From assembly GCA_017440665.1 (NCBI GenBank), contig JAFSGU010000028.1, positions 1-45,747 of the forward strand: 45,747 nt of DNA, read 5' to 3'. Positions within the stretch are counted from its first letter, which is position 1. The number at the start of each line of letters is the position of its first letter. The notes beneath the pieces were generated by a model. It saw nothing but the letters and a program-made list of their open reading frames with translations, had not been told where the DNA came from and searched no databases. The position numbers were made by a program, and so were the translations under genes. Below, piece after piece: positions 16,484 to 45,747 of the stretch. Source of the DNA: Clostridia bacterium (GTDB lineage Bacteria > Bacillota > Clostridia > Oscillospirales > CAG-272).

Positions 16484-16507
16484 AGGTCGCCTCTTTATAT
16501 ATTAGTA

Positions 16508-16867: not shown

Positions 16868-16886
16868 ATGATGTGCCTGCTTTCTC

Positions 16887-17773: not shown

Positions 17774-17777
17774 AACG

Positions 17778-18092: not shown

Positions 18093-18130
18093 GGATATAC
18101 CGTGCCTTTACTGTAGGATTTATATGTAAG

Positions 18131-19177: not shown

Positions 19178-19202
19178 GATGAATACTCCTTTCGGGAGAG
19201 AC

Positions 19203-20498: not shown

Positions 20499-20580
20499 GT
20501 CAGATCGTCCTTTCGGGAGTTTTTCGCGGTGATACAATTGTCGGTCATTGGAGGTGCCAAAAACACAATACCACAGATAC

Positions 20581-20609
20581 AGTATACTACATCTTATTTG
20601 ATGTGTCAA
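20581..20609 (-). promoter_or_regulatory. sigma-A promoter of the type IV filament operon
   Basis: Reading minus: consensus TTGACA (20604-20609), a 17-base spacer and TATACT (20581-20586). It is the best sigma-A match in the window and drives genes 20498 to 15425. Confidence 0.85.
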
Positions 20610-25900: not shown

Positions 25901-28900
25901 CCTTGCGGGAGGTAACAGCCTTAACGCAATGGAGACTATAATCGAAATAGAAAAGACGTTCGGACGACGCCTCAGAGTAGCTGATCTGTATGTATACAGG
26001 ACCGCCGCAAAGCTGGGAGCATTCCTTGACGGTGTGTCGGGACGTAGGATTTCCTCTAAGGATATTCCCGCGCGTCTCGCATTGAAGAAGGCGGAAAAGA
26101 AGGATAGCTATCCCCTCACACCTCTTCAGCAGGGAATGTACGTTCAGTCCGTACTGTCTCCCGATTCTCTTTCCTATAATATGCCCGGCGCGCTCAGAGG
26201 AAAGGGAGAGCTGGTTCCCGCGCGCATTGAAGAAGCATTCCGCGCTCTTATTGCGGGAGATCCCATATTCAGAACGGAATTCGTCAGCGACGGCGGTAAG
26301 ATCACAGCCCGTGTGCGCGACAGTGTGGATTTCAACGTTGAAGTTCTCGACGCTGTGAGCGAGGCTGAGGCTTCTGAAAAATTCCTCCGCCCCTTCGACC
26401 TGTCCCGTGCGCCCCTTATCAGAGCTGCTGTGTGGAACTCTCCCGACGGAGACGGTTATCTGTTCGTTGACAGCCACCATATCATCGGAGACGGACTTAC
26501 CACACCCGTTATGCTGCGCCGTCTGAACCGCGCTCTTGCAGGAAATGACGTTACCGCCGCATGGAGCTTCTACGATTATATGGAAAGCGGAGACCTTAAC
26601 GGCAGCCGCGGCGAGCTGGATTTCTGGCTCAAGACACTTGAAGAATTACCTGAGCCTGCCGTGCTTCCTGCCGACAGCGAGCGTCAGGCGAGATTCGACT
26701 TCCGCGGAAGCGAGCTTTCAGCAAGCTTTACAGAGGAAGAGAGCCGCAGGATCGCGGAATTCTGCCGTGAGAGCGGAGACACCGAGTACGGCGTGTTCCT
26801 TGCGGCGTTTGCTCTTGTGATATCTTCGCTTTCGGGCAAAAACGACGTTATCATCGGCGCTCCCGTTTCGGGCAGACGCCTTGATGAGTCCGCATCTATT
26901 TGCGGTCCCTTCATAAATACGCTTCCGCTCAGGCTCCGCCGTACGGAGGACATGACCGTGGGTCAGTGGCTTGAAAGAGCCCGTCACGCGGTTGTCGGAA
27001 TGATTGATCATCAGAGGACCTCTCTTGAGGAGATCATCACCGAGATGAAGCTTCCCCGCGGAGAGCAGAACGCCCTTTATCGCGTGATGCTCACCCAGAG
27101 TCCTGTGAATGAGGACCTGTTTACGTTGGGTGAGCGTAAGATGACCTACGTGCCCATATCCACGGGCAGCGTAAAGATGGATCTTATCTTAGAGCTGTCC
27201 GGAGACTCTGCCTCAGGCTACAAGATGAACTTCTCATACGCGTCAAGCATTTTCGAGAGAGAAACGGTGGCGCTTTGGAGCCGTTACGTTAAAGAAGCTG
27301 TGCTTTGTATGACGGGCGGTGACGGTGCTATGCTGTCAGAGCTCGATCTGCTTACACCTGATGACAGAGAACGTCTTGTCGACAACGTAAACTACAGCGT
27401 TACACCTTTTGTGAACCGTACGGTACACAGAATGCTTTACGGTGTGGCGAAGAGAAAAGAAAACGATACCGCGGTCATTTTCCACGACCGTAAATATACC
27501 TTCGGTGAGCTTGAGGCTCGTGCATCCTTCATAGCCGACTATATTGAAAGTATGGGCGTCACGGGCGGTGCCGTTGCGATATGTATGCCCCGAAGCTTTG
27601 AGATGATCGCCGCTATGTACGGTGTGCTTAAGGCGGGATGCGCATACACCTTCCTTAAGGATTCCTTCCCCGAGGCAAGACTTCACTATATGCTTGAAAC
27701 ATCAGAGGCGCGTCTTGTTATCGTGGGAGAAGACGTTACACTGGGAGAGGGAGCCACGGTCGGACTTGACTGTCCCGTTGTGACCGTGCCCGAAGGTGCG
27801 AGCACCGATACGAGAGGCGAGAGCGCAACTGACGGTATTGCCAATATCCTGTTTACATCAGGTTCCACCGGCAGACCCAAGGGAGTTATGCTGAGACATC
27901 GCTCTGTGGCAAACCTTTACGGTCAGATGAAGACCCTTCTTGAGGACGTGCCCGGACGTGTGCTTTGTTCCACTAACTGTGTATTCGATTGCTTCATCGT
28001 CGAAACGGTGATAGCTCTCGCCCTCGGTCGCTGTGTTGTAATGGCGGACGACGAGGAGATGATGCTTCCGTGGAAGCTTGCCGCGCTGGTTGAAAAATAC
28101 GAGACGTCAGTATTCGAGATGACGCCTACCAGACTGCGTATGTGTCTCGATAACGAGGACTTCAGACGTGCCGCCCATCACATCGGTATAGTTCTCCTTG
28201 GCGGAGAGGCTGTAAGCCGCGCCCTGGTAGAGGATTTCTGTTCATGCAGTGACGGACGTCTTATGAATATGTACGGTCCCACCGAGGCTACGGTATTTAC
28301 TACCATGTGTCAGCTGCTCCCGGGTGAGCACGTGACTATCGGCCGTCCTCTTCAGAACACAAGGACCTACGTTCTCGGAGAGGATATGAGACCCGTTCTT
28401 CCCACCGCTTGCGGTGAGATGTACATTGCCGGCGAATGTCTGTCTGCAGGATACGCTTCCGCGCCCGATCAGACCGCGGAATCTTTTGCGGACGATATCG
28501 TGTTCGCAGGAGAGCGTATGTACAAGAGCGGAGACATCGTAAGGCTGAGAGCGGACGGCAGATACGATTACATCGGCCGCGCCGACGAGCAGATAAAGCT
28601 TAACGGTCAGAGAGTTGAGCTGACCGAGATAAACGGCGCCATGGTCGATATCGATGCGGTGCTCCATGCGGCTACCGTCGGCGTGCACCGCGACGGGTTT
28701 ATGAGTCTTTGCTCCTTCTACGTTTCAACGGGAGAAGTGTCTCCCGCGGAGATCACGGAAAAGCTGAGACGCACGCTCCCGCCGTATATGGTTCCCGCAA
28801 GGATAGTACGTCTTGAGGAGATGCCCATGACGGCGACCAACAAGATCGATATGATGGCGCTGAAGCACATTGCAGAGTCGGCAGAGGAGCCTTCGGAGAA

Positions 28901-32443: not shown

Positions 32444-32459
32444 ATGAGGAATTTTGGGT

Positions 32460-33512
32460 ATGAGAAAAAGCAAACGTACAAACCAAAACCAAATATCTAT
32501 TCTAACTCTTGATGACGACCCGATAATCACTTCTACAATAAAGGACTATTTTGTCCGTTCGGGCTATGCGGTCGATACTGATAACGATCCCGAGGCTGCT
32601 ATTGAGCGGATCAGGGACGGATCATACGATATTTTGCTTCTCGACTTCCTCATGTCACCTATCTGCGGTGACCAGGTGGTAGAGGAGATCCGAAAATTCA
32701 ATAAGGATATCTTTATCGTTCTGCTCACGGGTCATAAGAGCATGGCTCCGCCGGTAAAGACCATCCGACAGCTTGACATACAGGGATATTATGAAAAGAG
32801 CGATCGCTTCGATCAGCTGGAGCTTCTCGTTGAGTCCTGCGTCAAGTCAATAAAACAGCTCAGAACCATCAAGGAATATCAGCGCGAGCTTGCAAATGCA
32901 TATATGCAGACTATCGAGACTCTCAGAAACGTAGTTGAGTCGAGAGACAAGGATACCGAGGGTCATTCAAGCCGCGTGTCCGCTTTGGCTTCGGCTATTG
33001 CTGAGGAGATGGGCCTTCCCAAAGAAGAAGTGGACAGGATCCGCGTTGCGGGACTTTTCCATGACATCGGCAAGGTGGGCGTAAGAGACGCAGTCCTTCT
33101 TAAGAAAGGTCCGCTCACAGACGACGAGTATGCTGAGATCAAGGAGCATCCCGTTGAGGGTGAAAAGATACTCTCTCCCTATACCGAGTTTGAAAAGCTT
33201 CTTCCCACGCTCCGTTCACACCACGAACGCTTTGACGGACGCGGATATCCCGACGGCCTTTCCGGCGAAGAGATCTGCCTGGGCGCGAGGATCATGTCCG
33301 TTGCCGATTCATTTGACGCTATGGTGTCGAACCGTGCGTACAGACGCGGACTCGGATTTGACGTGGCAATGGCTGAGATCGAGCGTTGCCGCGACGCACA
33401 GTTTGACGGTTCGGTGGTCGATGCGCTCAAGAGCATGATAGAAAAGATGGGAGAGGGAAACTTTATTAAGGTATTTTGTTCTCATGCGTTGAACGACGGG
33501 GGTGAGAATTAA
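32460..33512 (+). CDS. response regulator with HD-GYP c-di-GMP phosphodiesterase domain
   Basis: The receiver domain (~12-130) has the acidic pocket D18-D19-D20 and phosphoacceptor D62. A coiled linker (135-160) is followed by an HD-GYP domain (~155-345). All metal-binding signatures are intact: H169, H201-D202 (HDIGK), H230, H254-H255, and the GYP-type G-R-G-Y-P at 260-264. HD-GYP enzymes hydrolyse c-di-GMP to pGpG or GMP. There is no DNA-binding domain, so output is enzymatic. The ATG is placed 9 bases after GAGGA; a TTG six bases earlier is less likely. It overlaps the next start by one base (TAATG). Confidence 0.92.
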   Translation: MRKSKRTNQNQISILTLDDDPIITSTIKDYFVRSGYAVDTDNDPEAAIERIRDGSYDILLLDFLMSPICGDQVVEEIRKFNKDIFIVLLTGHKSMAPPVKTIRQLDIQGYYEKSDRFDQLELLVESCVKSIKQLRTIKEYQRELANAYMQTIETLRNVVESRDKDTEGHSSRVSALASAIAEEMGLPKEEVDRIRVAGLFHDIGKVGVRDAVLLKKGPLTDDEYAEIKEHPVEGEKILSPYTEFEKLLPTLRSHHERFDGRGYPDGLSGEEICLGARIMSVADSFDAMVSNRAYRRGLGFDVAMAEIERCRDAQFDGSVVDALKSMIEKMGEGNFIKVFCSHALNDGGEN

Positions 33513-35137
33513 TGAGGATCCCTAAATTAAATGAAGTAAAGTATTATTCCACATTCCGAGACATGGTCGACGGGCTCTCACTTGGAAACGAGGACAAGGC
33601 TGCGATCTCTTGGTTCACCCGTAAAGGCGAGGAAATAGGTGTAGATTACGGAAGATTCTATTCCGACGTGCGTTCACTTGCAAACGCTCTTGCATCGCGT
33701 GGGTATTCAGGCCGTCACGTTGCGGTGCTGGGAGAAAACAGCTACGAGTGGCTCTTGGTGTATTTTGCCTGCGCTTATTGCGGCGCTGTCACCGTGTGCA
33801 TTGACGTTGAACAGCCCGACGAGACTATAGTGCAGATGCTCACTATGGCAGACACGGACGTTATGTTTGCCGCTTCGCCGTTTGTTGATATCTGCCGCAA
33901 ATATTCGGCGGGCTCAAAGCCTGTGTTCACATTAAACGGTGCGGGCAGCGAATCTCTCGTCACTCTTATAGCCGAAGGTGAAACTGCAGCAGTGGAGCTG
34001 CCTGTCCTCAGCGGAGACAGTATTGCATCCATAGTATTTACCTCGGGTACCACAAGCTTTTCAAAGCCTGTGCTTCTCAGCCATGAGGCTATACTTACCA
34101 ATGCATCAGATGCTCTTGCCAACGTGGCTATAGGTAAGGTCGCTTTTACGTCTCTGCCGTTTTACCACACATACGGACTTACATGCTCCGTGCTGTCTAT
34201 GCTTATAGGCGGCGCTAAGCTGTATATAAACGGAAACCTTAAAACGGTTATGCGTGATATACATCTCGCAAAGCCGCATACGATGCTTACAGTCCCGCTG
34301 ATGCTTGAGACCATACACAGAAATCTCTGGCAGAATGCTGAGGAAACGGGTAAGGCATCGGGACTCAGAAAGCTTTTAAAGCTGAGAGGCTTCACCAAAG
34401 CGTTGGGCTTTAAGAAATGCTGCAAGACTCTGGCCGCCATTCGCGAGAAGTGTTTTGGAGAGATCAGGCTTATAATATGCGGCGGTGCTCACATGGATCC
34501 TGATATCACCGAGGAATTTGCGCTTCTGGGAGTAGACGTCGTTCAAGGATACGGTATTACTGAATGCGCGCCTCTTGTAAGCGTTAACCGTAACAGAGCC
34601 AATAAACCCCGTTCAGTCGGTCTTGTGACCCCTAACTGTGAGGTGAGGCTGGTTGACGGAGAGATATTCGTCCGCGGCAAGAATCTTATGAGCGGTTATT
34701 ATAATTCCCCCGAGATGACCGCAGAGGTAATGGAGGACGGCTGGTTCAAGACAGGCGACATTGGAGAGATCGACCGAGACGGATTCCTTTATATCACGGG
34801 CAGAAAGAAGAATCTTATCGTTTTCAAAAACGGCAAGAAGCTGTCCCCCGAGAAGCTTGAGGAAAAGATCAGAAGCTTTTCCCTTGTAAAGGACGTTGTT
34901 GTGTACGGTGCCGTGAACGGTATGTCAACGGATGACGTGCAGGTAGCGGCGAGCATATATCCGGATGAAGAAAAGGCCAAGGGTCTTGACTCATACCAGA
35001 TTCTCGAAGAACTCCAGAATAAGATCGTAGAGCTTAACCGCGAACTGCCTCTGTATCAGCAGATACAGATGGTGACCATAAGAGAGAACGCGTTTGAAAA
35101 AACTTCGCTTCAAAAGGTCAAGCGCCATCTTATGTAG
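33512..35137 (+). CDS. acyl-activating AMP ligase (fatty acyl-AMP/CoA ligase family)
   Basis: This 541-residue ANL-superfamily enzyme has an A3-type phosphate loop (FTSGTTSFSKPV), a YGITECAPLVS A5 motif, GDIGEIDRDGFLYITGR and a C-terminal Lys (SLQKVKRHLM). Sequence order and size are those of fatty acid ligases and not NRPS A domains. It would activate a fatty acid as acyl-AMP and hand it to a carrier protein. The ACP encoded next and the starter-type C domain of the NRPS make lipoinitiation of the peptide the natural role. A one-base overlap couples it to the HD-GYP gene. Confidence 0.88.
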   Translation: MRIPKLNEVKYYSTFRDMVDGLSLGNEDKAAISWFTRKGEEIGVDYGRFYSDVRSLANALASRGYSGRHVAVLGENSYEWLLVYFACAYCGAVTVCIDVEQPDETIVQMLTMADTDVMFAASPFVDICRKYSAGSKPVFTLNGAGSESLVTLIAEGETAAVELPVLSGDSIASIVFTSGTTSFSKPVLLSHEAILTNASDALANVAIGKVAFTSLPFYHTYGLTCSVLSMLIGGAKLYINGNLKTVMRDIHLAKPHTMLTVPLMLETIHRNLWQNAEETGKASGLRKLLKLRGFTKALGFKKCCKTLAAIREKCFGEIRLIICGGAHMDPDITEEFALLGVDVVQGYGITECAPLVSVNRNRANKPRSVGLVTPNCEVRLVDGEIFVRGKNLMSGYYNSPEMTAEVMEDGWFKTGDIGEIDRDGFLYITGRKKNLIVFKNGKKLSPEKLEEKIRSFSLVKDVVVYGAVNGMSTDDVQVAASIYPDEEKAKGLDSYQILEELQNKIVELNRELPLYQQIQMVTIRENAFEKTSLQKVKRHLM

Positions 35138-35215: not shown

Positions 35216-35458
35216 ATGGAAGAAAAACTTTTTGCTTTTATCGAGAAGACCGTAAGTAAGGTAACTGACAAAAGAGGTCTTACCTATGATACGGATTTCG
35301 TAAAGGACCTGGGACTCAATTCTTTCGATATAATGAATATCGTATGTGCGTTTGAGGACCATTTTGATATCGATATTCCCACGAGGGATGTGTGGTCCAT
35401 GCACCGCGTGGAAGACGTTATCAAATATATGATAGATAACGGTATTACCAATGTATAA
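35216..35458 (+). CDS. stand-alone acyl carrier protein
   Basis: The 80-residue acidic helical protein carries the phosphopantetheine site Ser in D-L-G-L-N-S-F-D-I-M (about residue 38). GGGAGG is well placed upstream. It differs from housekeeping ACPs (which have DSL) and lies between the acyl-AMP ligase and the PPTase, so it is probably dedicated to carrying the fatty acyl group to the first C domain of the NRPS. Confidence 0.9.
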   Translation: MEEKLFAFIEKTVSKVTDKRGLTYDTDFVKDLGLNSFDIMNIVCAFEDHFDIDIPTRDVWSMHRVEDVIKYMIDNGITNV

Positions 35459-36056
35459 AGATGATGTTCAAAGAGTATTCCTGTATGTCTTTGAAAAAGA
35501 CGACGGGACTACCGATCAGCTGTTAACTGCAAGCGTCAGTGATTTTTTTACAAAACGCGGCGAGGACGTAAAAGAGACGGAAATTTGTCGTGATGACAAA
35601 GGTGCGCCGTATATTGCGGGTGAAGAAATGCCGTTCGTTTCCGTAAGTCACAGCGGAGATTATACCGTGTGTGCGGTGTCTGACGGAAGAATAGGTGTGG
35701 ACCTGCAGGTCATACGTCGGTATAAGGATGAAACTGAAGCAGAGCAGACAAGGCGTCTGCTCAGGTTGGCAAGACGCTTTTTTCATCCATCAGAAACAGA
35801 GTGGATCGAAAAGGATCCTATGGGTCGCTTTTTCACCGTTTGGAGCGCGAAAGAATCATACGTAAAATACACGGGACAGGGGATCGATGACGATTTCGGC
35901 ATGACAAGTGTGATACCCGATATGGGACCGTACGGAACAGAATGGGAATGCGGCGGAATGTATTACCGCCTCTTGCCTTTTGCCGAGGGATACAGCTTTT
36001 GCGTATGCTGTGAGAGACCCATTGAAACGGAGACTGTGTTTGCATACGGATATTGA
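35451..36056 (+). CDS. Sfp-type 4'-phosphopantetheinyl transferase
   Basis: The protein (201 aa, slightly short for the Sfp class) has the P1-P3 motifs: FVSVSHSGDYTVCAVSD, G-V-D-L-Q with the Mg-binding Asp, and F-T-V-W-S-A-K-E-S-Y-V-K-Y with its Glu and Lys. It converts apo to holo carrier proteins using CoA, and is needed by both PCPs and the ACP of this locus. The ATG overlaps the ACP gene by 8 bases with a weak RBS, so translation is coupled. The operon ends at the terminator 35 bases downstream. Confidence 0.93.
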   Translation: MYKDDVQRVFLYVFEKDDGTTDQLLTASVSDFFTKRGEDVKETEICRDDKGAPYIAGEEMPFVSVSHSGDYTVCAVSDGRIGVDLQVIRRYKDETEAEQTRRLLRLARRFFHPSETEWIEKDPMGRFFTVWSAKESYVKYTGQGIDDDFGMTSVIPDMGPYGTEWECGGMYYRLLPFAEGYSFCVCCERPIETETVFAYGY

Positions 36057-36143: not shown

Positions 36144-36191
36144 GTTATATTTATCCGAAAAATATTGAATATTAATTATTTTAATTTCAAA

Positions 36192-36225
36192 TGTGACCGC
36201 TTTTGTGACCGTTCGGGTGTACAAT
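36192..36225 (+). promoter_or_regulatory. TGTGACCG-repeat promoter P1 (adhesin unit 1)
   Basis: Two identical octamers TGTGACCG at 36192-36199 and 36204-36211 (12-bp period), then exactly 8 bases, then TACAAT (36220-36225) as -10 box. No sigma-A -35 hexamer is present at 17 bases, so an activator is expected. An A/T-rich tract with GAAAAATATT lies upstream. The third, inverted half-site of P2 and P3 is missing. Confidence 0.8.
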
Positions 36226-36259
36226 ATTTATGAACATAAATCAGAATAGGAGGGATATT

Positions 36260-36667
36260 GTGAAAACACAGATGTTTTGCGATCCGGCAAAGATGTACGT
36301 CATATGTGTGGATTCTTATGAAGATAAGATCCTTGAAGGAAGAATATATAATGTGTTGCGCGATTCCTCAGTACCTTTTAAAAGCGCGGTTGATATGCTT
36401 GTGAAGTTAGAGATGCTTCTTGATGATGCTAAGTTGGTACAGTCGTATTCCGTTAAGCGTGTATTTACGCCGAATATGGCAAGTGGCTCGCTCGTTCAGA
36501 CCGGAAGCGTTGAAGACGGTAAGCTTGCGACATTTTCATTGAAGCTTCTGTTCCGCCAAAATGCCAGCTGGCAGGGCTCTGTCCTTTGGTGCGACGGAAA
36601 CTCGGAGGAATCGTTCCGCAGCGTTCTTGAGCTTCTTCTGCTGATGGACAATGCACTTTCGAAATAA
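36260..36667 (+). CDS. small conserved protein with internal duplication, 136 aa
   Basis: The start is GTG at 36260, directly after AGGAGGG (36248-36254). The in-frame ATG at 36230 is rejected because it lies right next to the -10 box at the expected transcription start. Two halves align without gaps: residues around LEGRIYN...FKSAVDMLVKLEMLLDD and WQGSVLW...FRSVLELLLLMDNAL. The second half matches a motif (FRQNASWQGSV...FRSVLELLLLMD) that recurs in unknown Clostridial proteins (recollection). There is no signal peptide or DNA-binding motif. It is the first gene behind P1 and precedes the TED adhesin, so it may regulate or assist it (inference). Confidence 0.7.
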   Translation: MKTQMFCDPAKMYVICVDSYEDKILEGRIYNVLRDSSVPFKSAVDMLVKLEMLLDDAKLVQSYSVKRVFTPNMASGSLVQTGSVEDGKLATFSLKLLFRQNASWQGSVLWCDGNSEESFRSVLELLLLMDNALSK

Positions 36668-36688
36668 TGCGTTGACAACATGAGAAAC

Positions 36689-36724
36689 CAAGCCATGGTA
36701 CCCGGACAAAGGTGCTGTGGCTTG
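36689..36724 (+). promoter_or_regulatory. intercistronic hairpin before adhesin 1
   Basis: CAAGCCA (36689-36695) pairs perfectly with TGGCTTG (36718-36724) around a 22-base loop; no T-run follows. It lies in the 174-base gap between the small gene and the adhesin, where no other convincing promoter was found, and may set their expression ratio. Confidence 0.35.
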
Positions 36725-36841
36725 TGCGCCCTCTCAACTTTAACGTTTTAAAGGAAATGCAAAAAACAAACGGTTGAAAGTTATGACGGACTTGCTTCGA
36801 TATATGCAGGTGAGTTTGGTATATGATAAGGAGATATGAAA

Positions 36842-39370
36842 ATGAAAAAATTCGGAAAGATACTTTCTTTGATGCTTGCGATAATGATGATCGTCAGCTG
36901 TATGTCATTTTATGTATTTGCGGCAGACACGGTGTGGAATGCTGCAGATATGTCTGTTGACGTTGTTCCCGGTACGGAAGGTTACAGCTTCCTTTCGGTC
37001 TACCGCAAACCCGGACATGCTTATGAAATGAGTAACCACATGGTAAGCACAGACGGCGGCGCAAACAACGATATTCCTCAGACTCTTGTTCTCGTGGACG
37101 CGTCCGAGGAGTATACGTGGACTCCCGGCGGTAAATACGTGCACGGTCAGTCTAACTACGAAGTGCTTTACTGCTGTGATGCTGAAACAGGCTATGAAGA
37201 CGGTATCTACTACAAGAGACTGAATCTTGAGGACAGCGAATACTACAACGCTGACCAGGCTGCTCACATCCGTGCTATCGTGACACATTCCTACCCCTAC
37301 GTTACACTCGAGCAGATGAAGGCGGATCTCAAGGCTGCAGGTCTTGAATATGCAGATGAGCTTACCCGTGCTGAGATCATTTCAGCCGTACAGGCGGCTA
37401 TCTGGGGATACGCTAACGACGACGTAGGCCTGTATACGTACAGCCGGACATTTGACGTGCCCACAAACACACAGTGGGGAACTGTTATGCATGACTACAC
37501 CAACGAAATGAACGTGTGGTGGACTACCGGTAAGAGAAAGTTCTCCACGGACGAGGCAACAGAAAAGAGAGTCAACGGACTTACAGAGTACCTTATGTCT
37601 CTCGACAAGGTCGCGCCTGCTCCCGAGGAGATCATCATCTCCAAGCTTGAGATATTGAAGACCGTGCCCGTTGTAGGCAAGGACGGTACATTCTCCACCA
37701 CGCTTAAGATCGCTCTCAACAACAGCGGAAGCGGTGAAGCAGACACACTTAAACTTGATGTATTGGTTGACGGCGTGCTTGCGCATACAAGTGACGTATC
37801 ATTCGGCACATCCGATTACGAGGTGACCGTTGATGCAAGAGTTGGTCAGAAGATCAGTGCAGTGGTATCCGGTACTCAGGTGCTTCCCGTAGGTGCGTAT
37901 TTCTATGCTCCCGAGCCTGCTGACGTAGACGGTGACGGTGTTGCGACCAGCAGAGAGGTTTCTCAGAATCTCGTAGGCGTTGCATCCGGTAAAACTCCCG
38001 TTTATACAAAGGAAGAGGTATACGTTCCCGGCGAGACTGAGCTTACGGTTATCAAGAACTGGGATGATGACGACAACCGTGATGCGCTCCGCCCCAATGA
38101 AGTTACCGTAAGACTCAATGCAGGCACAAAGGAGATCGCATCTGCTGTTCTTAATGAAGAAAACGAGTGGAGCCACACCTTCGAAGGACTTGCCATCTAC
38201 AATGAATCCGGTGATCTCATTAATTATACTGTAACCGAAGACGAGGTAGAAGGATACGAAGCAGTTATCGAAGACCTTTCCGTAACAAACGTACACCGTC
38301 CCGAGCTTACCTTCGTTGAGGTGGAGAAGAGCTGGAACGACGGCGACGACCGCGATGCTCTCCGTCCCGATGAGATCACGGTAAGACTTCACGCAAACGG
38401 TATAGAGGTAGCATCTCAGGTTCTTAACGCTGAGAACGGCTGGAGCACAAAGTTTGATAACCTTTTCAAGTATGAAAACGGAGAAGAGATCGTATACACC
38501 ATCACAGAGGATGCTGTAGAAAACTATAACCCCACAGTCACCGAGACCGAAAACGGCTTTGCCATCGAAAACTACTACAAGCCCGAGACCACCTTCGTTA
38601 ACGTAACAAAGGTTTGGGATGACGACGGTGACCGCGACGGTAAGAGACCCGACAGCGTGACCGTAGCGCTTCTCGCAGACGGCGAGATGACTGAGTATAC
38701 ACTGGTCCTGAATGCTGAAAACGGCTTTACAGGTACCTTTGCAGAGCTCCCCGTAAATCGCGCAGGTAAGAAGATCGAGTACACGGTAACAGAGCTTGAC
38801 GCGGCTCCTTACACAGCGACCGTTACCGGCGACGCTGTAACAGGCTTCAATATTACTAATACCTATGTTCCCGAAACAGTTGAAGTATCCGGCACAAAGA
38901 CATGGGTCGACGAGGACAACGCAGACGGTATCCGTCCCGAGTCCATCACAATAAGCCTCCTTGCAAACGGTGAGAAGATCGACAGCAAGACCGTAACCGA
39001 AAAGGACGGCTGGGCATGGACCTTTGAAGACCTCTACAAGTACGAGAACGGCGAAGTGATCGAATACACCGTCACAGAGGACGCTGTTGATGGATATGAT
39101 AGCGAGATCGACGGATACAACGTGACAAACACACATATTCCGGAAGAAGTGATCGAGGATGATCCGATCCCGCTCGTTCCCGCAGACAAGGATGACAGCC
39201 ACGAAGACCTCGTTGAGATCGAGGACCCTGAGATCCCCCTCGCGCCGAGTAATGGCGAAAACGCTCCTCAGACAGGAGACGGCTCCGTTATTGCTCTGAT
39301 CGCGGCTGCTGCGGCAGGCGTTGTACTCATCGCTGTTATGAGAAAGAAGAGAGCATTCCTCGGAAGATGA
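36842..39370 (+). CDS. thioester-domain (TED) adhesin with four Cna_B domains and sortase signal
   Basis: A signal peptide (1-28) precedes a thioester domain of the Gram-positive TED type. The cysteine motif Y-C-C-D (C111/C112) and the glutamine of A-V-Q184-A-A-I-W would form the internal Cys-Gln thioester that binds host surfaces covalently. A beta domain follows (~260-390). Four Cna_B repeats (~395-480, 485-585, 588-680, 683-770) form the stalk, each with K-x-W at the start and N-Y-T-V-T-E-like ends, which suits isopeptide bonds. A Pro/Glu-rich stretch, the LPXTG-variant APQTGD, a hydrophobic helix and RKKR complete the cell-wall sorting signal. The ATG at 36842 is 8 bases after AAGGAG; the ATG at 36836 is too close. 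Confidence 0.9.
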   Translation: MKKFGKILSLMLAIMMIVSCMSFYVFAADTVWNAADMSVDVVPGTEGYSFLSVYRKPGHAYEMSNHMVSTDGGANNDIPQTLVLVDASEEYTWTPGGKYVHGQSNYEVLYCCDAETGYEDGIYYKRLNLEDSEYYNADQAAHIRAIVTHSYPYVTLEQMKADLKAAGLEYADELTRAEIISAVQAAIWGYANDDVGLYTYSRTFDVPTNTQWGTVMHDYTNEMNVWWTTGKRKFSTDEATEKRVNGLTEYLMSLDKVAPAPEEIIISKLEILKTVPVVGKDGTFSTTLKIALNNSGSGEADTLKLDVLVDGVLAHTSDVSFGTSDYEVTVDARVGQKISAVVSGTQVLPVGAYFYAPEPADVDGDGVATSREVSQNLVGVASGKTPVYTKEEVYVPGETELTVIKNWDDDDNRDALRPNEVTVRLNAGTKEIASAVLNEENEWSHTFEGLAIYNESGDLINYTVTEDEVEGYEAVIEDLSVTNVHRPELTFVEVEKSWNDGDDRDALRPDEITVRLHANGIEVASQVLNAENGWSTKFDNLFKYENGEEIVYTITEDAVENYNPTVTETENGFAIENYYKPETTFVNVTKVWDDDGDRDGKRPDSVTVALLADGEMTEYTLVLNAENGFTGTFAELPVNRAGKKIEYTVTELDAAPYTATVTGDAVTGFNITNTYVPETVEVSGTKTWVDEDNADGIRPESITISLLANGEKIDSKTVTEKDGWAWTFEDLYKYENGEVIEYTVTEDAVDGYDSEIDGYNVTNTHIPEEVIEDDPIPLVPADKDDSHEDLVEIEDPEIPLAPSNGENAPQTGDGSVIALIAAAAAGVVLIAVMRKKRAFLGR
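38878..39130 (+). repeat. Cna_B DNA repeat, copy in adhesin 1
   Basis: This unit is nearly identical at the nucleotide level to those at 42748-43264 and 45337-45747, including the block coding for SGTKTWVDEDNADGIRPESI. Confidence 0.85.
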
Positions 39371-39403
39371 CCTATGGCGGTAGATAAGCTATAATAAAAT
39401 GAT

Positions 39404-39435
39404 AAGACGTGCTAAAAAAGCACGTCTTGTTTTTT
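39404..39435 (+). terminator. terminator of adhesin unit 1
   Basis: AAGACGTGC (39404-39412) and GCACGTCTT (39420-39428) with a 7-base loop, followed by GTTTTTT. A canonical intrinsic terminator. Confidence 0.9.
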
Positions 39436-39481
39436 GAAAAAATTACAAAAAATATTTGATTTTTTATAAAAAATATTAAAA

Positions 39482-39524
39482 TGTGACCGCTAATGTGACC
39501 GAGGGATGTTAAAATAAAGTCACA
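39482..39524 (+). promoter_or_regulatory. TGTGACCG-repeat promoter P2 (adhesin unit 2)
   Basis: TGTGACCG at 39482-39489 and 39494-39501 (12-bp period), 8 bases, TAAAAT -10 box (39510-39515), then 3 bases and an inverted half-site GTCACA (39519-39524). AAAAAATATT tracts lie upstream. Confidence 0.85.
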
Positions 39525-39562
39525 ATAAAGGAAAAAACCAAATAACATCCAATTCAAAGGGG

Positions 39563-39594
39563 TCGGGCGGAAGCCGCGAACGGCCCGAAAGGAG
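39563..39594 (+). promoter_or_regulatory. GC-rich leader hairpin touching the RBS of adhesin 2
   Basis: TCGGGC (39563-39568) pairs with GCCCGA (39583-39588), with GCGG/CCGC nested inside. The last A of the stem is the first base of the Shine-Dalgarno AAAGGAG (39588-39594). The stem could modulate ribosome access. Confidence 0.4.
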
Positions 39595-39601
39595 ATATAA
39601 A

Positions 39602-42600
39602 ATGAAACGTACAATAAGAAAGATCTTATCTATGGTGCTTGCAGTTATGATGACAGTCAGCTGCATGACGGTATTTGCTCAGGCGAGTGAAGCCGATGCT
39701 GAAAACGGATGGCTCGGTGACGGTATGACGCTTAATATTGAGCCCGGCAAGGAGCCCTACGTGTACGCTATCGCGCAGGATCCCGACAACAATCGCTGGT
39801 ACTACGAGACCAGTAACCACACCGTTAAGAAAGAGGTAACCGGTGGTGGAGCAATTCACATCTTCCCCATAGTTGATTCAACCAAGCTTGAGGATGGTGT
39901 ATGGACTCCCGATGATATTTATAACTGCGGCACAAGCAACTATGATGTTATGTACTGCTGTGATTCTATTACAGGTACTGACAACGCAATTTACTATAAG
40001 CGCGTAAACCTTGAGGACAGCGAGTACGTTACAAATGAACAGGCAAAGAAGCTTCGTGCTATCGTTACCAACGCTTATCCCTATGTTTCTGTTGATGAAG
40101 CAAAGGCAGCGCTTAAGGCAGCAGGCTTTGCACAGGCTGACGAGCTTGATCGTTCCGAGCTTATCACAGCTACCCAGGCGGCCGTCTGGAGTATTGCTAA
40201 CAAAGATGCCGGTGATTCTTATCGCTACAACAAGACTGCAACGACCGCTCACAAGCTTACATGGGGCGGATACATGCACGAATTTGCAAATGAGATCGCT
40301 AATTTCACCGACAGTACAGTTTCAAGAAAGTACTACAGCAACCCCAACGGTACCGGCGACCGTATCAATGCTCTCATAGATTTCTATCTCGCAATGGAAG
40401 GCGTTGAGGCGACCAGAGAACAGATCGTAATCACAAAGCTTGATATTACAGGAGCGATCCCTTCGGTAGAGAGTGATGACCTTTATTCCGTGTTCCTTAA
40501 GGTCGAGCTGAATAACAGCGGCAGCAGTGACAATGATAAGCTCAAGCTTGACGTATACGTAGACGGACAGCTTGCCGACAGCAAGGACATTATTTCCAGC
40601 AACACCGAATATGAAATAAACGTTAACGCCAAGGCAGGCGACAGCATCAATGCGGTAGTTTCCGGCACTCAGTATCTTTCCAAGAGCGTATACTTCTATG
40701 TTCCCGAGCCTCAGGACATAGACGGTGACGGAATTGCAACAAGCAGAGAGGTTTCTCAGAACCTTATCGGTGTTGCAAGCGGTGAGACTGCAGTTCGTGC
40801 AGAAGACGAGGTAAAGCTTGTTGTAAGCTCCGTAACGGGTGCTGTAACCTTGCACAAGGTTGATGAAAACAAGCAGGCTCTCGCGGGAGCGGAGTTCGAT
40901 CTTTATAAAGAGATCGACGGCGAGAAGATTTTCGTTGAATCCGTTGTGATCGGCGAAAGCGGCGCACTGCATATCGGTAATATGCAGCCCGGTACTTACG
41001 AGCTCGTAGAGACTAAGGCCCCCGAAGGATTCCATAAGCTTGAAAACCCCATCCGCTTTAACGTAAAGGAAGACGGTATTGTCGATCTTCTTACAGAGGG
41101 TGATGCCGAAGTAACTGTAGGCAGTACCGTAACAAAAACGGAGACCGTTACTGAAGACGTTGAGGCGGGAGAAGAACTTCCCAAGCTCGTATTGAACCTT
41201 ATTCCCGGTGAAGAAAGCTCTGACGAGGTATGCGTTACGGTTGAAAATGAGACTTTCTACCGCGAAGCTGTCGGCAGCGCAAGCGATGTTGAGGTGAAGG
41301 AAAATTCCACTCACGGAACAATGACGTCTCTCATGCCCGAAAAGAATACAGCGGCAGGCACAGAGCTTGATATGCAGTACTGGAAAGATCCCTCTACGGT
41401 AACCGTAACCGGTGAGGCACCCGCAGGTTATCCTTACCAGAAGGGCGGAGCGGGCCAGCAGAGCAATCAGTATATAAGCCGTATCTACGTTATATATGAA
41501 AAGGACGAAAACGGCGAGTGTGTTATCAAGGAGCTCCGCAAGCTCACAAATAAAGCGAACGAGATCCTTACTGTAAACGGTGAGCCCACACTCGATATTT
41601 ACGCACCTTTCGATCAGAAGACCGGAACGACAGCTGCTCAGGCGTTCCTTAAGGATGCGGCAGGAAATACGGCGTACGTATATTGCTGTGACCTTGGCAA
41701 GGATGTGCCCGACAACTCATGGTACTCCATAAACAATCTTGAGGATGTTGACTACTTTGCATCCGAGGACGCAGAAAACCACATTCGTAATATCGTATTA
41801 AACGGATACTGGGGAACGGCATCCGGTACGGGAAGCCTTGCAGCACTTAAGGAAAAGCTTGTTGCAGCATTTAAGGCAGGCGAGATAGGCAACACCGTAG
41901 AGATCACCTACAAAAACGTAAATAACGTAAACGTTACGGAAACTGTAACGATCACTGAGGAAATTCTTAACGGACTTACCGAGGCTGAAGCACTTGATAT
42001 GACTCAGACGGCAATCTGGGCATATTCAAACGGAACTCTGGCAGTACAGGACGGCAGAGACGGCTATATCGTAGGTAACATTACCTACGGAGACAGTGCC
42101 CGCGGTCACAAAGTCCATACAACGACCGATGACAAGGCAGGCATGGCGAGAATGACTGTTCTTCACAATTGGCTTATTAACCTTGATGAGGAAAAGACTT
42201 CTACCACTATCATCAACGAGCATAAATTCGTTGAAAACATGAAGCTTGAGATCGGCAACAAGGTTAAGGATGCAGGTAATGACGTATATCTCGCAGACCT
42301 CAGCTTTGATCTTGAATTTGCACCCGGTGCGGCAGACGACCTTCTCATCCACCTCTCTTACGTTGACGCTAAAGGCGAGACGAAGGAGATCGTTAAGAGA
42401 ATTGCCGGAACAAATACGGACGGACGCGTTTACGACGATATCGCAGTAAGAGACGGACGTTACGTGATCGAAGGACTTGAACTCAGCGAAAATACCGAAA
42501 CAAAATTCGATCTTAGAATCGAAGGCGTTCAGACTCTTGAAAACGGCGTATACCTCTACATCGCACAGAACGGTATCGAGAACGTTCAGACTCTCGTTGG

Positions 42601-43570
42601 TGTAGCAGAGGGTACTCGCGTTGCAGACGTTACCAAAACTATCAGCTTTACATTCAATGTCGATGAGAAGAAGGATGTGGAGATCGAATACGCTCAGGTC
42701 AGCCAGACTCTCTCTGTTGTAAACAAGGCTATTTATGCTCCCACTGTGTCCGGTGTGAAGACGTGGAATGACGAAGATGACCGCGACGGTATCCGTCCCG
42801 AGTCCATCACCATCAACCTCCTTGCAAACGGCAAAGTTATCGACAGCAAGGTAGTGACCGAGGCAGACGGCTGGGCATGGACCTTTGAAAACCTCTACAA
42901 GTACGAAAACGGCGAAGAGATCGTATACAGTATCGAAGAGGTAGCGGTAGACGGCTACGAAACAGCAGTAGACGGCTACAACGTAACCAACACATACGTA
43001 CCCGAGAAGACTACCGTATCCGGCACGAAGACTTGGGTGGACGAGGACAACGCAGACGGAATCCGTCCCGAGTCTATCACAATAGGCCTCCTTGCAAACG
43101 GCGAGAAGATCGACAGCAAGGTAGTAACCGAGGCAGACGGCTGGGCATGGACCTTTGAGAATCTCTACAAGTATGAAAACGGCGAAGAGATCGAGTACAC
43201 CGTCACCGAGGATGCTGTAGAAGGATACGAAACAGTAGTTGACGGCTACAACGTAACCAACACCCACGAGGTAGAGGAAGAGATCATCCCCGATGATAAG
43301 AAGGAAGACGAAGAGATCGACGATCCTCAGGTTCCTCTCGCTCCTGCAGACAAAGAGCCCGAGAAAAAGCCCGAAGTAAAGCCCGAGGCTCCCGAGAAGG
43401 AAGAGCTCGTAGAGATCGAGGAAGAGGAGATCCCCCTCGCTCCCGAGTTCACCGCACCTCAGACAGGAGACGCAAGCTCACTTATCGTATGGCTTGCAGC
43501 AGCTGTGGTAACAGGTACGCTCTTCATCATCGCAACCGCTAAGATGAGACGTGCTTCTGCAGAGAGATAA
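39602..43570 (+). CDS. double thioester-domain adhesin with Cna_B stalk
   Basis: The 1322-residue protein has a signal peptide (1-28). TED1 has the Cys motif Y-C119-C120-D and T-Q192-A-A-V-W. A beta domain follows, then a SpaA/prealbumin-like domain (~408-500, GAVTLHKVDENKQALAGAEF and YELVETKAPEGF). TED2 has Y-C695-C696-D and T-Q802-T-A-I-W. After another beta region come two Cna_B repeats (~1049-1220) and a Glu/Pro-rich spacer. The APQTGD sorting motif (about 1285) is followed by a membrane helix and a basic tail. Two thioesters in one chain may double or cross-link host attachment. It is monocistronic between P2 and the hairpin at 43598. Confidence 0.9.
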   Translation: MKRTIRKILSMVLAVMMTVSCMTVFAQASEADAENGWLGDGMTLNIEPGKEPYVYAIAQDPDNNRWYYETSNHTVKKEVTGGGAIHIFPIVDSTKLEDGVWTPDDIYNCGTSNYDVMYCCDSITGTDNAIYYKRVNLEDSEYVTNEQAKKLRAIVTNAYPYVSVDEAKAALKAAGFAQADELDRSELITATQAAVWSIANKDAGDSYRYNKTATTAHKLTWGGYMHEFANEIANFTDSTVSRKYYSNPNGTGDRINALIDFYLAMEGVEATREQIVITKLDITGAIPSVESDDLYSVFLKVELNNSGSSDNDKLKLDVYVDGQLADSKDIISSNTEYEINVNAKAGDSINAVVSGTQYLSKSVYFYVPEPQDIDGDGIATSREVSQNLIGVASGETAVRAEDEVKLVVSSVTGAVTLHKVDENKQALAGAEFDLYKEIDGEKIFVESVVIGESGALHIGNMQPGTYELVETKAPEGFHKLENPIRFNVKEDGIVDLLTEGDAEVTVGSTVTKTETVTEDVEAGEELPKLVLNLIPGEESSDEVCVTVENETFYREAVGSASDVEVKENSTHGTMTSLMPEKNTAAGTELDMQYWKDPSTVTVTGEAPAGYPYQKGGAGQQSNQYISRIYVIYEKDENGECVIKELRKLTNKANEILTVNGEPTLDIYAPFDQKTGTTAAQAFLKDAAGNTAYVYCCDLGKDVPDNSWYSINNLEDVDYFASEDAENHIRNIVLNGYWGTASGTGSLAALKEKLVAAFKAGEIGNTVEITYKNVNNVNVTETVTITEEILNGLTEAEALDMTQTAIWAYSNGTLAVQDGRDGYIVGNITYGDSARGHKVHTTTDDKAGMARMTVLHNWLINLDEEKTSTTIINEHKFVENMKLEIGNKVKDAGNDVYLADLSFDLEFAPGAADDLLIHLSYVDAKGETKEIVKRIAGTNTDGRVYDDIAVRDGRYVIEGLELSENTETKFDLRIEGVQTLENGVYLYIAQNGIENVQTLVGVAEGTRVADVTKTISFTFNVDEKKDVEIEYAQVSQTLSVVNKAIYAPTVSGVKTWNDEDDRDGIRPESITINLLANGKVIDSKVVTEADGWAWTFENLYKYENGEEIVYSIEEVAVDGYETAVDGYNVTNTYVPEKTTVSGTKTWVDEDNADGIRPESITIGLLANGEKIDSKVVTEADGWAWTFENLYKYENGEEIEYTVTEDAVEGYETVVDGYNVTNTHEVEEEIIPDDKKEDEEIDDPQVPLAPADKEPEKKPEVKPEAPEKEELVEIEEEEIPLAPEFTAPQTGDASSLIVWLAAAVVTGTLFIIATAKMRRASAER
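42748..43264 (+). repeat. two tandem Cna_B DNA repeats in adhesin 2
   Basis: Two units of about 255 bases are nearly identical to each other and to copies in the flanking adhesin genes, with the same codons through GWAWTFE(N/D)LYKYENGE. Confidence 0.85.
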
Positions 43571-43597
43571 ACCGAAACGAATAATTAAATAGCGACG

Positions 43598-43629
43598 GCC
43601 GGTGTCACCTGAGAAAATGGGGCACCGGC
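43598..43629 (+). terminator. hairpin after adhesin 2
   Basis: GCCGGTG (43598-43604) pairs with CACCGGC (43623-43629); the following sequence TGTAATTTATTT is T-rich but broken. A probable transcript end. Confidence 0.6.
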
Positions 43630-43687
43630 TGTAATTTATTTGCAATAAAAGTTACGAAAACCGGAAAAATATTAAAATAAATTTAAA

Positions 43688-43730
43688 TGTGACCGGATAT
43701 GTGACCGATATATGATAAAATTAAGTCACA
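43688..43730 (+). promoter_or_regulatory. TGTGACCG-repeat promoter P3 (adhesin unit 3)
   Basis: TGTGACCG at 43688-43695 and 43700-43707 (12-bp period), 8 bases, TAAAAT (43716-43721), 3 bases and inverted GTCACA (43725-43730). All distances equal those of P2. GGAAAAATATT lies upstream. Confidence 0.85.
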
Positions 43731-43819: not shown

Positions 43820-45747
43820 ATGAAAACAAACAACTTCTTCAAAAGATTTTTTGCGATCTTCCTCGTGGCAATAATGGTGTTCAGCTCGACCCATTTGACT
43901 TTTGCGGCAGATGGTAACAGCAACAGTTATGAAGGCCCGGCGGAGCATGACAAATCCAAGACTGCGACTGACTTGTATGACAACAGATACACTGACGTTA
44001 CTCTGTCTGTCCCCGGTAAGGTAGAGACACTTTCCACAGACGTTGTATTTGTAATTGACAAGTCTTCCTCTGATAAGCTGTCATCCGATTTTGCAAACGG
44101 ATTTTTTGAGCAGCTCGTTGAGGTGCAAAAGAGATCAGGCGCATTAGTCAAGGTTGGAGTTGTGATCTTCAACTACGACGGTCACATCGCACTTCCTCTC
44201 ACAGCACTGACTGAGGAGAACTATCAGACGCTGCTTGACAGCCTTCCTTCGTATTCAGGCGGAACAAATGCCGATGCGGGCCTTGTTCTTGCAAAACAGA
44301 TGCTTGATGCAGACACTGACGTTGATGCCTCCCGTAAGCACGTTATTCTAATCGGTGACGGTAAAAACTGGGCGTTTGACGTAAACGGAGCTCCTCATAC
44401 TATCCTTCTTAAAAGCAATGACGCTGCTACCTCTACTCTGTACGGAGCAGGAACGACTACTTGGCTTGAAGGCCGCAAATCTTCCGGTTACAGTATCCCC
44501 AAGGAGTTTGCTTCATGGAATGAATATTGGGAGCAGATAAAAGCATGGGTCGAGGCTGACGGTGACCGTTACGTGTTTGACATTACAAACTACAACAGCA
44601 AGGACGAATCACTCAAGCCCGATTATCAGAGCGAAAAAGCGGTTGCTTCAGCTGTTGTTATCGGAGAAAGTGCCTCACACGCGTTGAATATGGACCGCGC
44701 GATCTATGATACGTGGGAATCCTATAAAGCACTTCAGGATGCAGGATACAACTGCAATGCATATTACTCCGGCACCAGCTCTTCCGATATCGGTTACTGC
44801 CTGATGAGCATGCTCGCAGATTCAAAATCTATGAGCTTTGATGATATTAAGTATGATATTCTTTACTCCGTGTCCAAGGGCTCTGTGATCGAAGATTATA
44901 TCGGCTTCAGCGCAGATGAGATAGAAGGCTACAATTTTGATTTCATTGAGCAGGCTGAGAAGCTCGTTCTCAAGGTTGGAGAGATCATTTACAGTACCGA
45001 AAAACTTGAAGAAGCGAAGAACGGCGCAACAAGCTCCTATGAATTCACAGCGCCCGGCGCAACAGAAGCTACCTTTGCTCTCGATTATTTCAAGGGTAAC
45101 GGTACTACGACCGAAAGATTCGTATGGACCTTTGGTGAAAATGTTTCCAGATTTGCACCGGTATCATTAACTTATACGCTCGATCTCGTTGAGAGAAGTA
45201 CTGTTCCGGGTATCCATGAGAATGTTGATACAAATATTTCCGCAATTCTTTATCCCAAGGACAGCGATGGAAAGGACGGTCCTCCGGAGGAGTTTGAAAA
45301 GCCTAAGGTTAAGTATGAGGTTCTTCCGATCACCGTATCCGGTGTGAAGACGTGGAATGACGAAGATGACCGCGACGGAATCCGTCCCGAGTCCATTACG
45401 ATCAACCTCCTTGCAGACGGCGAGAAGATCGACAGTAAGGTAGTAACCGAAGCGGACGGCTGGGCATGGACTTTCGAAGGTTTGCGTGAATACAAAGGAA
45501 GCTCTAAGATCGAGTACACCGTCACCGAGGACGCTGTAGAAGGCTACGAAGCAGCAGTTGACGGCCTCAACGTAACCAATACATACGTACCCGAGAAGAC
45601 TACCGTATCCGGCACTAAGACTTGGGTGGACGATGACAACGCAGACGGTATGCGTCCCGAGTCCATTACAATCAACCTCCTTGCAAACGGCGAGAAGATC
45701 GACAGCAAGGTAGTGACCGAGGCAGACGGCTGGGCATGGACCTTTGA
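43820..45747 (+). CDS. VWA-domain Cna_B adhesin, 3' end outside window
   Basis: The frame starts at ATG 43820, 7 bases after GAGGTGAAG-type Shine-Dalgarno sequence, and stays open to the window end (642 residues visible). A signal peptide (1-29) is followed by a von Willebrand factor A domain (~72-300) with the metal-ion site D80-K-S82-S-S84, GGTNADAGL and LIGDGK. This fold is typical of pilus-tip adhesins that bind matrix ligands. From residue ~505 two Cna_B repeats begin, the second cut off by the end. The sorting signal must lie beyond. The neighbouring TED adhesins have the same sorting motif and promoter class, so the three probably form one adhesin regulon. Confidence 0.88.
   Translation, partial: MKTNNFFKRFFAIFLVAIMVFSSTHLTFAADGNSNSYEGPAEHDKSKTATDLYDNRYTDVTLSVPGKVETLSTDVVFVIDKSSSDKLSSDFANGFFEQLVEVQKRSGALVKVGVVIFNYDGHIALPLTALTEENYQTLLDSLPSYSGGTNADAGLVLAKQMLDADTDVDASRKHVILIGDGKNWAFDVNGAPHTILLKSNDAATSTLYGAGTTTWLEGRKSSGYSIPKEFASWNEYWEQIKAWVEADGDRYVFDITNYNSKDESLKPDYQSEKAVASAVVIGESASHALNMDRAIYDTWESYKALQDAGYNCNAYYSGTSSSDIGYCLMSMLADSKSMSFDDIKYDILYSVSKGSVIEDYIGFSADEIEGYNFDFIEQAEKLVLKVGEIIYSTEKLEEAKNGATSSYEFTAPGATEATFALDYFKGNGTTTERFVWTFGENVSRFAPVSLTYTLDLVERSTVPGIHENVDTNISAILYPKDSDGKDGPPEEFEKPKVKYEVLPITVSGVKTWNDEDDRDGIRPESITINLLADGEKIDSKVVTEADGWAWTFEGLREYKGSSKIEYTVTEDAVEGYEAAVDGLNVTNTYVPEKTTVSGTKTWVDDDNADGMRPESITINLLANGEKIDSKVVTEADGWAWTF
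45337..45747 (+). repeat. Cna_B DNA repeats in the VWA adhesin (second truncated)
   Basis: One full unit (45337-45590) and a partial one (45598-45747) share long identical stretches with those at 42748-43264, even at synonymous sites. Confidence 0.85.

Follow-up and report, generated by a model that had tools for sequence, protein, structure and literature searches.

For uncultured gut Clostridia, the transcriptional control of adhesin genes has hardly been charted so far. A contig of a Clostridia bacterium of the order Oscillospirales (assembly GCA_017440665.1, contig JAFSGU010000028.1), analyzed over its 45,747 nucleotides and referred to below as the window, carries three promoters, P1, P2 and P3, that share a pair of direct repeats and lie within one array of adhesin genes. 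Which regulator acts through these repeats, and to what signal is it connected? We consider it likely, on the strength of genome comparison, that P1-P3, and likewise a fourth promoter on another contig of the assembly, are operators of a SARP-type (Streptomyces antibiotic regulatory protein) activator encoded at 20826-22007 of the same window, and that together they constitute a surface-adhesin regulon linked to cyclic di-GMP (c-di-GMP). The sites, their geometry, their co-occurrence and linkage with the regulator gene, the positions of riboswitches and the conservation of motifs were all computed from the genomes.

Architecture of the promoters

The three promoters are exact copies of the arrangement TGTGACCG-N4-TGTGACCG-N8-(-10), all on the forward strand. 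P1 (36192-36225) has its repeats TGTGACCG at 36192-36199 and 36204-36211 and the -10 box TACAAT at 36220-36225, whereas P2 (39482-39515, before the second adhesin gene) and P3 (43688-43721, before the third) have the -10 box TAAAAT, at 39510-39515 and 43716-43721, respectively. The arrangement of octamer, four bases, octamer, eight bases and -10 box had been proposed by an earlier sequence-only reading of this DNA and proved exact at all three places. Its span for P1 was also right, whereas those for P2 and P3 were too long for the cores, which end at 39515 and 43721, and had taken in the hexamer GTCACA. The absence of a visible -35 box was borne out: the slots 16-18 bp before the -10 box of P1-P3 hold no TTGACA-like hexamer, and a scan for sigma-70 promoters gave no match at the repeats of P1 or P2 and a weak one (9/12, with a shifted -10; GTGACC-16-TATGAT, 43689-43716) at P3. 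The A/T tracts with AAAAATATT noted before all three promoters are indeed there, with AAAAATATT at 36158 before P1 (tract 36158-36191, forward strand), at 39448 and 39469 before P2 (39448-39481) and at 43665 before P3 (43665-43687). It is possible that these tracts serve as UP elements.

A pyrimidine-purine step 6-7 nt past the -10 box is common to the sites, so that transcription likely starts at about 36232 (P1), 39522 (P2) and 43728 (P3). Given a start at 36232, the P1 leader would measure 28 nt up to the GTG codon at 36260. P1 is proposed to transcribe the 135-aa gene that begins there, and probably the first adhesin gene too.

Chance hardly accounts for the pattern. With up to three mismatches the octamer pair has four matches in the window, versus a mean of 0.37 in 100 shuffles, none of which reached four; the match besides P1-P3 (20048, minus strand, one mismatch) falls within a transglutaminase gene and, being coding, was disregarded. 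For the exact full pattern about 8e-7 occurrences are expected by chance in the 1.57-Mb assembly. Allowing three mismatches, the full pattern occurs there at four sites, P1-P3 and position 530 of contig C75, and the reversed pattern at none. The fourth site has one mismatch, a TATAAT box and the same spacing as P1-P3, and precedes a 1984-aa adhesin frame with thioester domains. As the assembly is only 55.6% complete, the regulon may be larger.

A random occurrence of the pattern in coding DNA would have spoken against it, and in this respect the bare octamer pair and the full pattern behave differently. Among 295 genomes of the family the exact pair alone is present in eight besides the genome itself. 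Nine of the ten such sites were checked, and every one overlaps a stop-to-stop frame of 80 aa or more; several of these frames appear long and repetitive on inspection. The bare pair was for this reason replaced as a search key by the pattern with the -10 box, which in the window's own assembly is found only at the four places, outside the main genes. P2 overlaps an 85-aa frame on the other strand and the fourth site a 103-aa frame, both of which are probably spurious.

Sites in other genomes

An exact scan for TGTNACCG-N4-TGTNACCG-N8-TANAAT in about 85,000 species genomes retrieved 33 stretches, versus about 1.9 expected with uniform bases, and 27 of them are from Clostridia by record title. 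In these seed sites the -10 box is commonly extended by TG (T in 29/33, G in 25/33). For the regulator query the 33 stretches were reduced to 19 loci: eight, presumed to be chance or coding matches, were set aside (L048, L056, L061, L062, L063, L073, L077 and L079), and six more (L055, L057, L065, L075, L074 and L078) because their two genomes already had a site in the set. Judged by their identical coordinates, the genomes G301 and G611 appear to be one and the same assembly, and so do G299 and G476; the sets consequently overlap.

A table of 61 hand-picked sites, 40 with a repeat period of 12 bp as in the window and 21 with a period of 11 bp (presumed chance matches left out), was used to delimit the operator. 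T-rich spacers are common, and the region upstream of the first repeat has A/T-rich columns in the 40 sites, often with TGAA at -19 to -16. There is no sign of a third upstream repeat: none of the offsets tried, up to 40 bp upstream, has one in more than three sites. The hexamer GTCACA, noted earlier at a fixed place behind the -10 box of P2 and P3, is present after these two (39519 and 43725) only. At the fixed offset it is exact in 4/40 of the 12-bp and 0/21 of the 11-bp sites (with one mismatch, 7 of 40 and 4 of 21), and it was rejected as part of the operator. In L055, L057, L059, L065, L075 and L078 a short palindrome, AAAGGCGTACGCCTTT, lies just past the -10 box of 12-bp sites.

That P1-P3 lie within one adhesin array, and that five sites of one relative have longer flanks in common, could suggest that the sites are duplicated copies of an adhesin promoter or a mobile repeat rather than operators. 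This is very improbable. Within the window the agreement among P1-P3 is, by eye, limited to the repeats, the -10 box and the A/T tracts, the same core precedes unrelated genes elsewhere, and the gap to the -10 box stays constant while the period differs between lineages.

A SARP-type candidate activator

The proposed activator, P0005 (393 aa; 20826-22007, forward strand), consists of an OmpR-type winged-helix domain (Trans_reg_C, 27.4 bits, cut-off 26.2) followed by a BTAD domain (68.7 bits, cut-off 22.1), which is the domain order of the SARP family, and a C-terminal degenerate GGDEF-like domain that resembles diguanylate cyclases. Its residues 25-235 are co-linear with AfsR over both the DNA-binding and the BTAD halves (E 8e-5), and the match with EmbR (E 9e-7) concerns mainly the BTAD. 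It also weakly matches SaeR and further domains of the OmpR type. The structural model of P0005 resembles EmbR, the AfsR of a transcription initiation complex and GGDEF folds including PelD, but with a mean predicted local distance difference test (pLDDT) of 58.6 these fold matches are only supporting. Judged by its domains, P0005 is a SARP relative; it is not an AfsR orthologue, considering a score of 24.7 bits against the NCBIfam AfsR equivalog, for which the cut-off is 1430. No other BTAD protein was found in the assembly itself, and 11 other genomes of the genus yielded one weak BTAD match.

The likeness extends to the operators. According to the accessible parts of two reports, SARP operators are direct repeats with a period of 11 or 22 bp that lie over the -35 region, the last copy being 8 bp from the -10 box (PMC10936776, PMC10972967). 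In the window, too, the repeats overlap the -35 position and 8 bp separate the second octamer from the -10 box, and in many relatives the period is 11 bp. The earlier suggestion of a dedicated activator-controlled regulon has thus gained ground, through a fourth adhesin site, the same architecture in other gut Clostridia and a candidate activator of SARP geometry in the window. P0005 shares its N-terminal OmpR-type DNA-binding domain and BTAD with AfsR, ActII-ORF4, DnrI and EmbR of the Actinobacteria, but it is found in Clostridia, its apparent targets are adhesin genes rather than antibiotic clusters, its half-site would be TGTNACC, and where AfsR has NOD and TPR domains it has the degenerate GGDEF domain. 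A SARP-family regulator outside the Actinobacteria, GSU1771 of Geobacter sulfurreducens, has been linked to biofilm formation (PMC10599522). As far as the available text goes, it has a response-receiver domain rather than a GGDEF domain and other targets, and the term 'direct repeat' is absent from the main text of that paper. Searches of open-access literature for SARP or BTAD proteins in Clostridia or gut bacteria brought up no regulon of this kind among the entries listed.

Co-occurrence and linkage of sites and regulator

Sites and regulator occur together. A homologue of the regulator was found in 17 of the 19 site-bearing genomes queried, in 16 of them over most of its length. Within a sample of 394 genomes of the order, 70 of which have a homologue at E <=1e-20 (regulator-positive) and 324 do not (negative), eight have 12-bp sites with at most one mismatch. 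All five genomes with the best homologues are among these eight, versus 3/389 of the others (p 7e-10). Taking all regulator-positive genomes the contrast is weaker (6/70 versus 2/324, p 5e-4). The matches in one 12-bp site-bearing genome, G566, look like chance.

Beside more distant regulators, an 11-bp form of the site, TGTAACC-N4-TGTAACC-N9-TATNNT, was read upstream of genes of the same type as the 135-aa gene behind P1 (P0001). A search of the 394 genomes for TGTNACC-N4-TGTNACC-N6-TG-N-TANNNT, with at most one mismatch, gave sites in 33 of them, 22/70 regulator-positive versus 11/324 negative (p 6e-11), whereas the reversed pattern matched in 9/394. The 11-bp search had no match in the five genomes with the best homologues, and of the 22 only G486 has a 12-bp match as well. 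Moreover, the regulator-positive genomes contain 24 of these 11-bp sites, nine of which are only 68-290 bp away from the regulator segment; by chance about 0.015 sites should fall within 700 bp of it. Two of the nine, in G574 and G614, had already been seen when the pattern was written.

WalR (YycF), a response regulator that governs cell-surface genes in Firmicutes, has boxes of the form TGTWAH-N5-TGTWAH with an 11-bp period. This half-site and period are nearly identical to TGTNAC-N5-TGTNAC, the winged-helix domain is of the same class as that of P0005, which itself weakly matches SaeR and other OmpR-type domains, and in one genome (G476) sites are present although no BTAD protein was matched. 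The sites could accordingly be boxes of a WalR-like response regulator of the OmpR family. We regard this as unlikely, as the distribution of the sites tracks the BTAD regulator rather than the order at large: the 11 of 324 negative genomes with an 11-bp site are close to the reversed control, and sites adjoin the BTAD gene. Among ten gene families recurring in at least six of 37 regulator loci no response regulator of the OmpR type was seen, one family of 107 aa being unscanned and WalR itself not having been searched for.

Spacing of the repeats

The spacing was determined by counting matches in a grid of 90 cells (nine periods by ten gaps, the gap being counted from TGTNACC to the -10 box) over 36 regulator loci (636 kb), the window and pattern-fetched loci left out. 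Eleven matches fall at period 12 and gap 9, six at 11/9, and no other cell holds more than one; shuffled sequence gives about 0.03 matches per cell. Three of the 36 loci were from genomes known for 12-bp sites, 16 from genomes found by such sites, and 17 were picked by regulator score alone; the last group contributed six matches at 11/9 and one at 11/11. A first grid of 44 loci, in which the window and seven loci retrieved with the 11-bp pattern itself were still included, had 14 matches at 12/9, 13 at 11/9 and five at 11/11. The peak at gap 9, equivalent to the 8 bp between octamer and -10 box, is that of the SARP operators.

In a tree of 44 regulators (L166 dropped as a repeat of L120) the window's regulator belongs to a clade of 21 with a support of 100/100. 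Fifteen members have 12-bp sites, for the other six no site was found, and 11-bp sites do not occur in the clade, whereas the period beside regulators outside the clade is 11 bp. Some row labels derive from sites elsewhere in the genome, and the 11-bp labels of L124, L125, L129 and L131 from separately read sites. Restricted to sites within the fetched stretches, the 12-bp period occurs in 11 loci, all in the clade, and the 11-bp period in 13, all outside; the 11-bp pattern had itself been used to retrieve seven of these 13, and genomes known for 12-bp sites were the source of the 12-bp loci. The split amounts to a natural experiment on the tolerance of an activator for an extra base between its half-sites.

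Probable relation to c-di-GMP

The C-terminal domain of the regulator retains the I-site motif RxxD in 45/45 sequences and the GGDEF motif in 0/45, nearly all having S-x-x-Q-Y/F instead. Loss of the active motif with retention of RxxD, the hallmark of a degenerate GGDEF receptor, is thus found in every one of the 45. The accessible text on PelD of B. cereus describes a degenerate GGDEF domain with an intact RxxD I-site that binds c-di-GMP (PMC7112168). The domain of P0005 has kept the same motif but, unlike PelD, is fused to a putative transcription activator. By this likeness the degenerate GGDEF domain of the activator probably binds c-di-GMP.

A second connection comes from the transcripts. 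At the fourth site of the window's own genome a c-di-GMP-I riboswitch (RF01051, 61.3 bits) was found at C75:648-763, and one lies behind the site in 9/38 loci scanned, the fourth site included. This riboswitch extends over the TTG codon at which the fourth adhesin frame (L036, 728-6682) was mechanically set to begin, so that the true start of the frame is uncertain. In 14 site-bearing genomes, 17/18 riboswitches have a same-strand 11/9 or 12/9 site upstream. For eight of the 18 the pairing was already known before these genomes were selected; nine of the remaining ten have a site, and three of these nine sites (before L183, L189 and L192) had been seen earlier without their riboswitch. In L182, L189 and L192 a P0001 gene sits between site and riboswitch. 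In Clostridioides difficile, as the accessible part of the source has it, the adhesin gene CD2831 is under a type II c-di-GMP riboswitch (PMC6447587); here, too, an adhesin lies behind a c-di-GMP riboswitch, but the aptamer is of type I and the start would be a SARP-type promoter. Taken together, these sequence features make control of the regulon by c-di-GMP a strong lead.

Proposed mechanism and points against it

We infer that P0005 binds these sites, activates transcription from them and binds c-di-GMP. Two subunits would bind, via the OmpR-type domain, to the direct repeat TGTNACC at a spacing of 12 bp, or of 11 bp in many relatives. The bound repeat would take the place of the -35 element, and P0005 would recruit RNA polymerase to the -10 box located 9 bp past the second TGTNACC. 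The products would be surface adhesins with thioester, Cna_B, von Willebrand A or S-layer domains, together with the small conserved partner P0001. Through its degenerate GGDEF domain with the retained I-site P0005 would probably sense c-di-GMP and, in several site-bearing genomes, at the fourth site in the window's own, the transcript would begin with a c-di-GMP-I riboswitch. Adhesion would in this way be gated by c-di-GMP at two levels.

Several results weigh against this picture. The period found in the window and in its clade, 12 bp, is neither of the published SARP periods of 11 and 22 bp, although the secondary operator of PimR has, according to the accessible text, a period of 10 bp (SARP review; PMC10936776/PMC10972967), so that the SARP period is not rigid. 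Six regulators of the window's clade have no site in the fetched stretches, five genomes found via 12-bp sites have a regulator outside the clade, and the match between period and tree is imperfect, with five changes. Of the regulator-positive genomes, 48/70 lack an 11-bp site. The homologue in G311 is a fragment of 51 residues only. A serious difficulty is G476, which is 96% complete and has two sites with at most one mismatch but no homologue at E 1e-20; G299, the site of which is that of G476, and G300 have none at 1e-3. G486 has 12-bp and 11-bp sites and a weak homologue only (8.8e-32). As to c-di-GMP, no c-di-GMP-I riboswitch was detected in the window, and none at P1-P3 at E up to 1. Outside the site-bearing set a site accompanies 1/35 riboswitches in regulator-positive and 0/27 in negative genomes, 62 among the matches listed (L222 was dropped for lying at a contig edge), from which it follows that the riboswitch link belongs to the site-bearing genomes. 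G486 has sites of both periods, located on C16 and C2 (L103, L179 and L188), and may carry two regulators.

Since all evidence on the regulator consists of co-occurrence and linkage, and since G476/G299 and G300 have sites without a BTAD match, the BTAD gene might merely travel with the sites, and another regulator, or an alternative sigma factor reading the repeats as its -35 element, might be at work. We deem this improbable: the -10 box is a normal TATAAT, often with the extended TG, the tandem repeat and its gap match the SARP values in the accessible literature, and the same gap emerged in the grid around regulators picked by score alone.

Control by P0005 would place the SARPs, mainly studied as antibiotic switches in Streptomyces, in the surface biology of the gut. 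A likely activator has been named, operator and activator have both been linked to c-di-GMP, and the operator code is readable from the sequence and predicts co-regulated surface proteins in a number of species. A wider proposal would be that gut Clostridia of the Oscillospirales type possess a new class of c-di-GMP-sensing SARPs that governs adhesion, acts doubly via a dead GGDEF domain and a riboswitch, went from an 11-bp to a 12-bp operator in one clade and has a small non-coding RNA rather than a protein gene as target in one genus; we put it just short of an even balance.

Gene neighbourhood of the proposed activator

Directly after the activator gene follows a gene for a GGDEF protein of the diguanylate cyclase type (22004-22966, forward strand), and a response regulator with an HD domain (32454-33512, forward strand) may have a part in c-di-GMP turnover. 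Divergent from the activator lies a type IV pilus-like operon (15425-20609, minus strand) encoding T2SSE, small proteins, DUF4860, T2SSF and a transglutaminase-like protein. These neighbours recur: in 37 regulator loci, with families named from one locus (L137), transglutaminase genes are found 21 times, T2SSF 20, T2SSE 18 and GGDEF/HD response regulators 13 times, and DUF4860 and small pilin-like proteins in 14-15.

The region 22935-30494 encodes a non-ribosomal peptide synthetase with two condensation domains, two adenylation domains and a terminal reductase-type domain, and an AMP-binding enzyme and a phosphopantetheinyl transferase (33512-35137 and 35451-36056) go with it. The regulator gene heads this cluster in the window and might control it, as classic SARPs do, the adhesin sites being incidental. 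Such a role is hardly credible, considering that the window scan gave the three adhesin-side sites only and that the recurrent neighbours in relatives are pilus-like, transglutaminase and GGDEF/HD genes and include no peptide synthetase. As the window, too, holds the transglutaminase, T2SSF, DUF4860 and T2SSE genes of the surface locus, this locus seems to be the older one, with the peptide-synthetase genes inserted between regulator and P1.

Genes behind the sites

The first gene behind P1, P0001 (36260-36667, forward strand, GTG start), has no match in Pfam or NCBIfam, and its family is unnamed in both. The family adjoins the regulator in many relatives, with homologues in 20/36 fetched regulator loci (window excluded), and eight of the 33 stretches have their site directly before a homologue (L047, L049, L058, L066, L068, L070, L071 and L076). 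The model of P0001 (pLDDT 73) contains two beta-beta-beta-alpha units, i.e. a duplicated unit, and short single-unit versions occur in L058 and L066. A resemblance to Pur-alpha, the best Foldseek match (E 0.16), was too weak to use.

The adhesin genes of the window are all on the forward strand. The first (36836-39370) encodes a thioester domain and Cna_B repeats, its match to the LPXTG-anchor model being below the cut-off, the second (39602-43570) two thioester domains, SpaA and Cna_B repeats, and the third (43820-45747, truncated by the contig end) a von Willebrand A domain and Cna_B. Elsewhere many further sites precede large proteins with starts that look like signal peptides. Among 30 hand-picked downstream proteins, 15 have adhesive domains in Pfam (Cna_B, thioester, SpaA, FctA, von Willebrand A, S-layer, Listeria-Bacteroides repeat and ice-binding-like), two are signal peptidases, one is a camelysin-type peptidase, and the remaining 12 are without such a match. 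The signal peptidases, at 570-610 nt from the site, are perhaps not the first genes. The description as an adhesin regulon in the sequence-only reading is thus supported by comparison, but a regulon of adhesins only it is not, as the first gene of P1 encodes a conserved small protein of an unnamed family.

In six genomes of one genus (L170-L175) an 11-bp site is divergent from the regulator gene and, in the 4/6 that were read, no protein gene is evident behind it. About 110 nt past the site lies a conserved stretch in which TTTACTTTTCTTTCCGTCA does not vary and a hairpin resembling a terminator shows some paired changes; this stretch is a candidate small RNA. In L167 and L168, which have no regulator match, a common 11-bp-type site precedes a gene that resembles, by look only, that of a pyruvate formate-lyase-activating enzyme.

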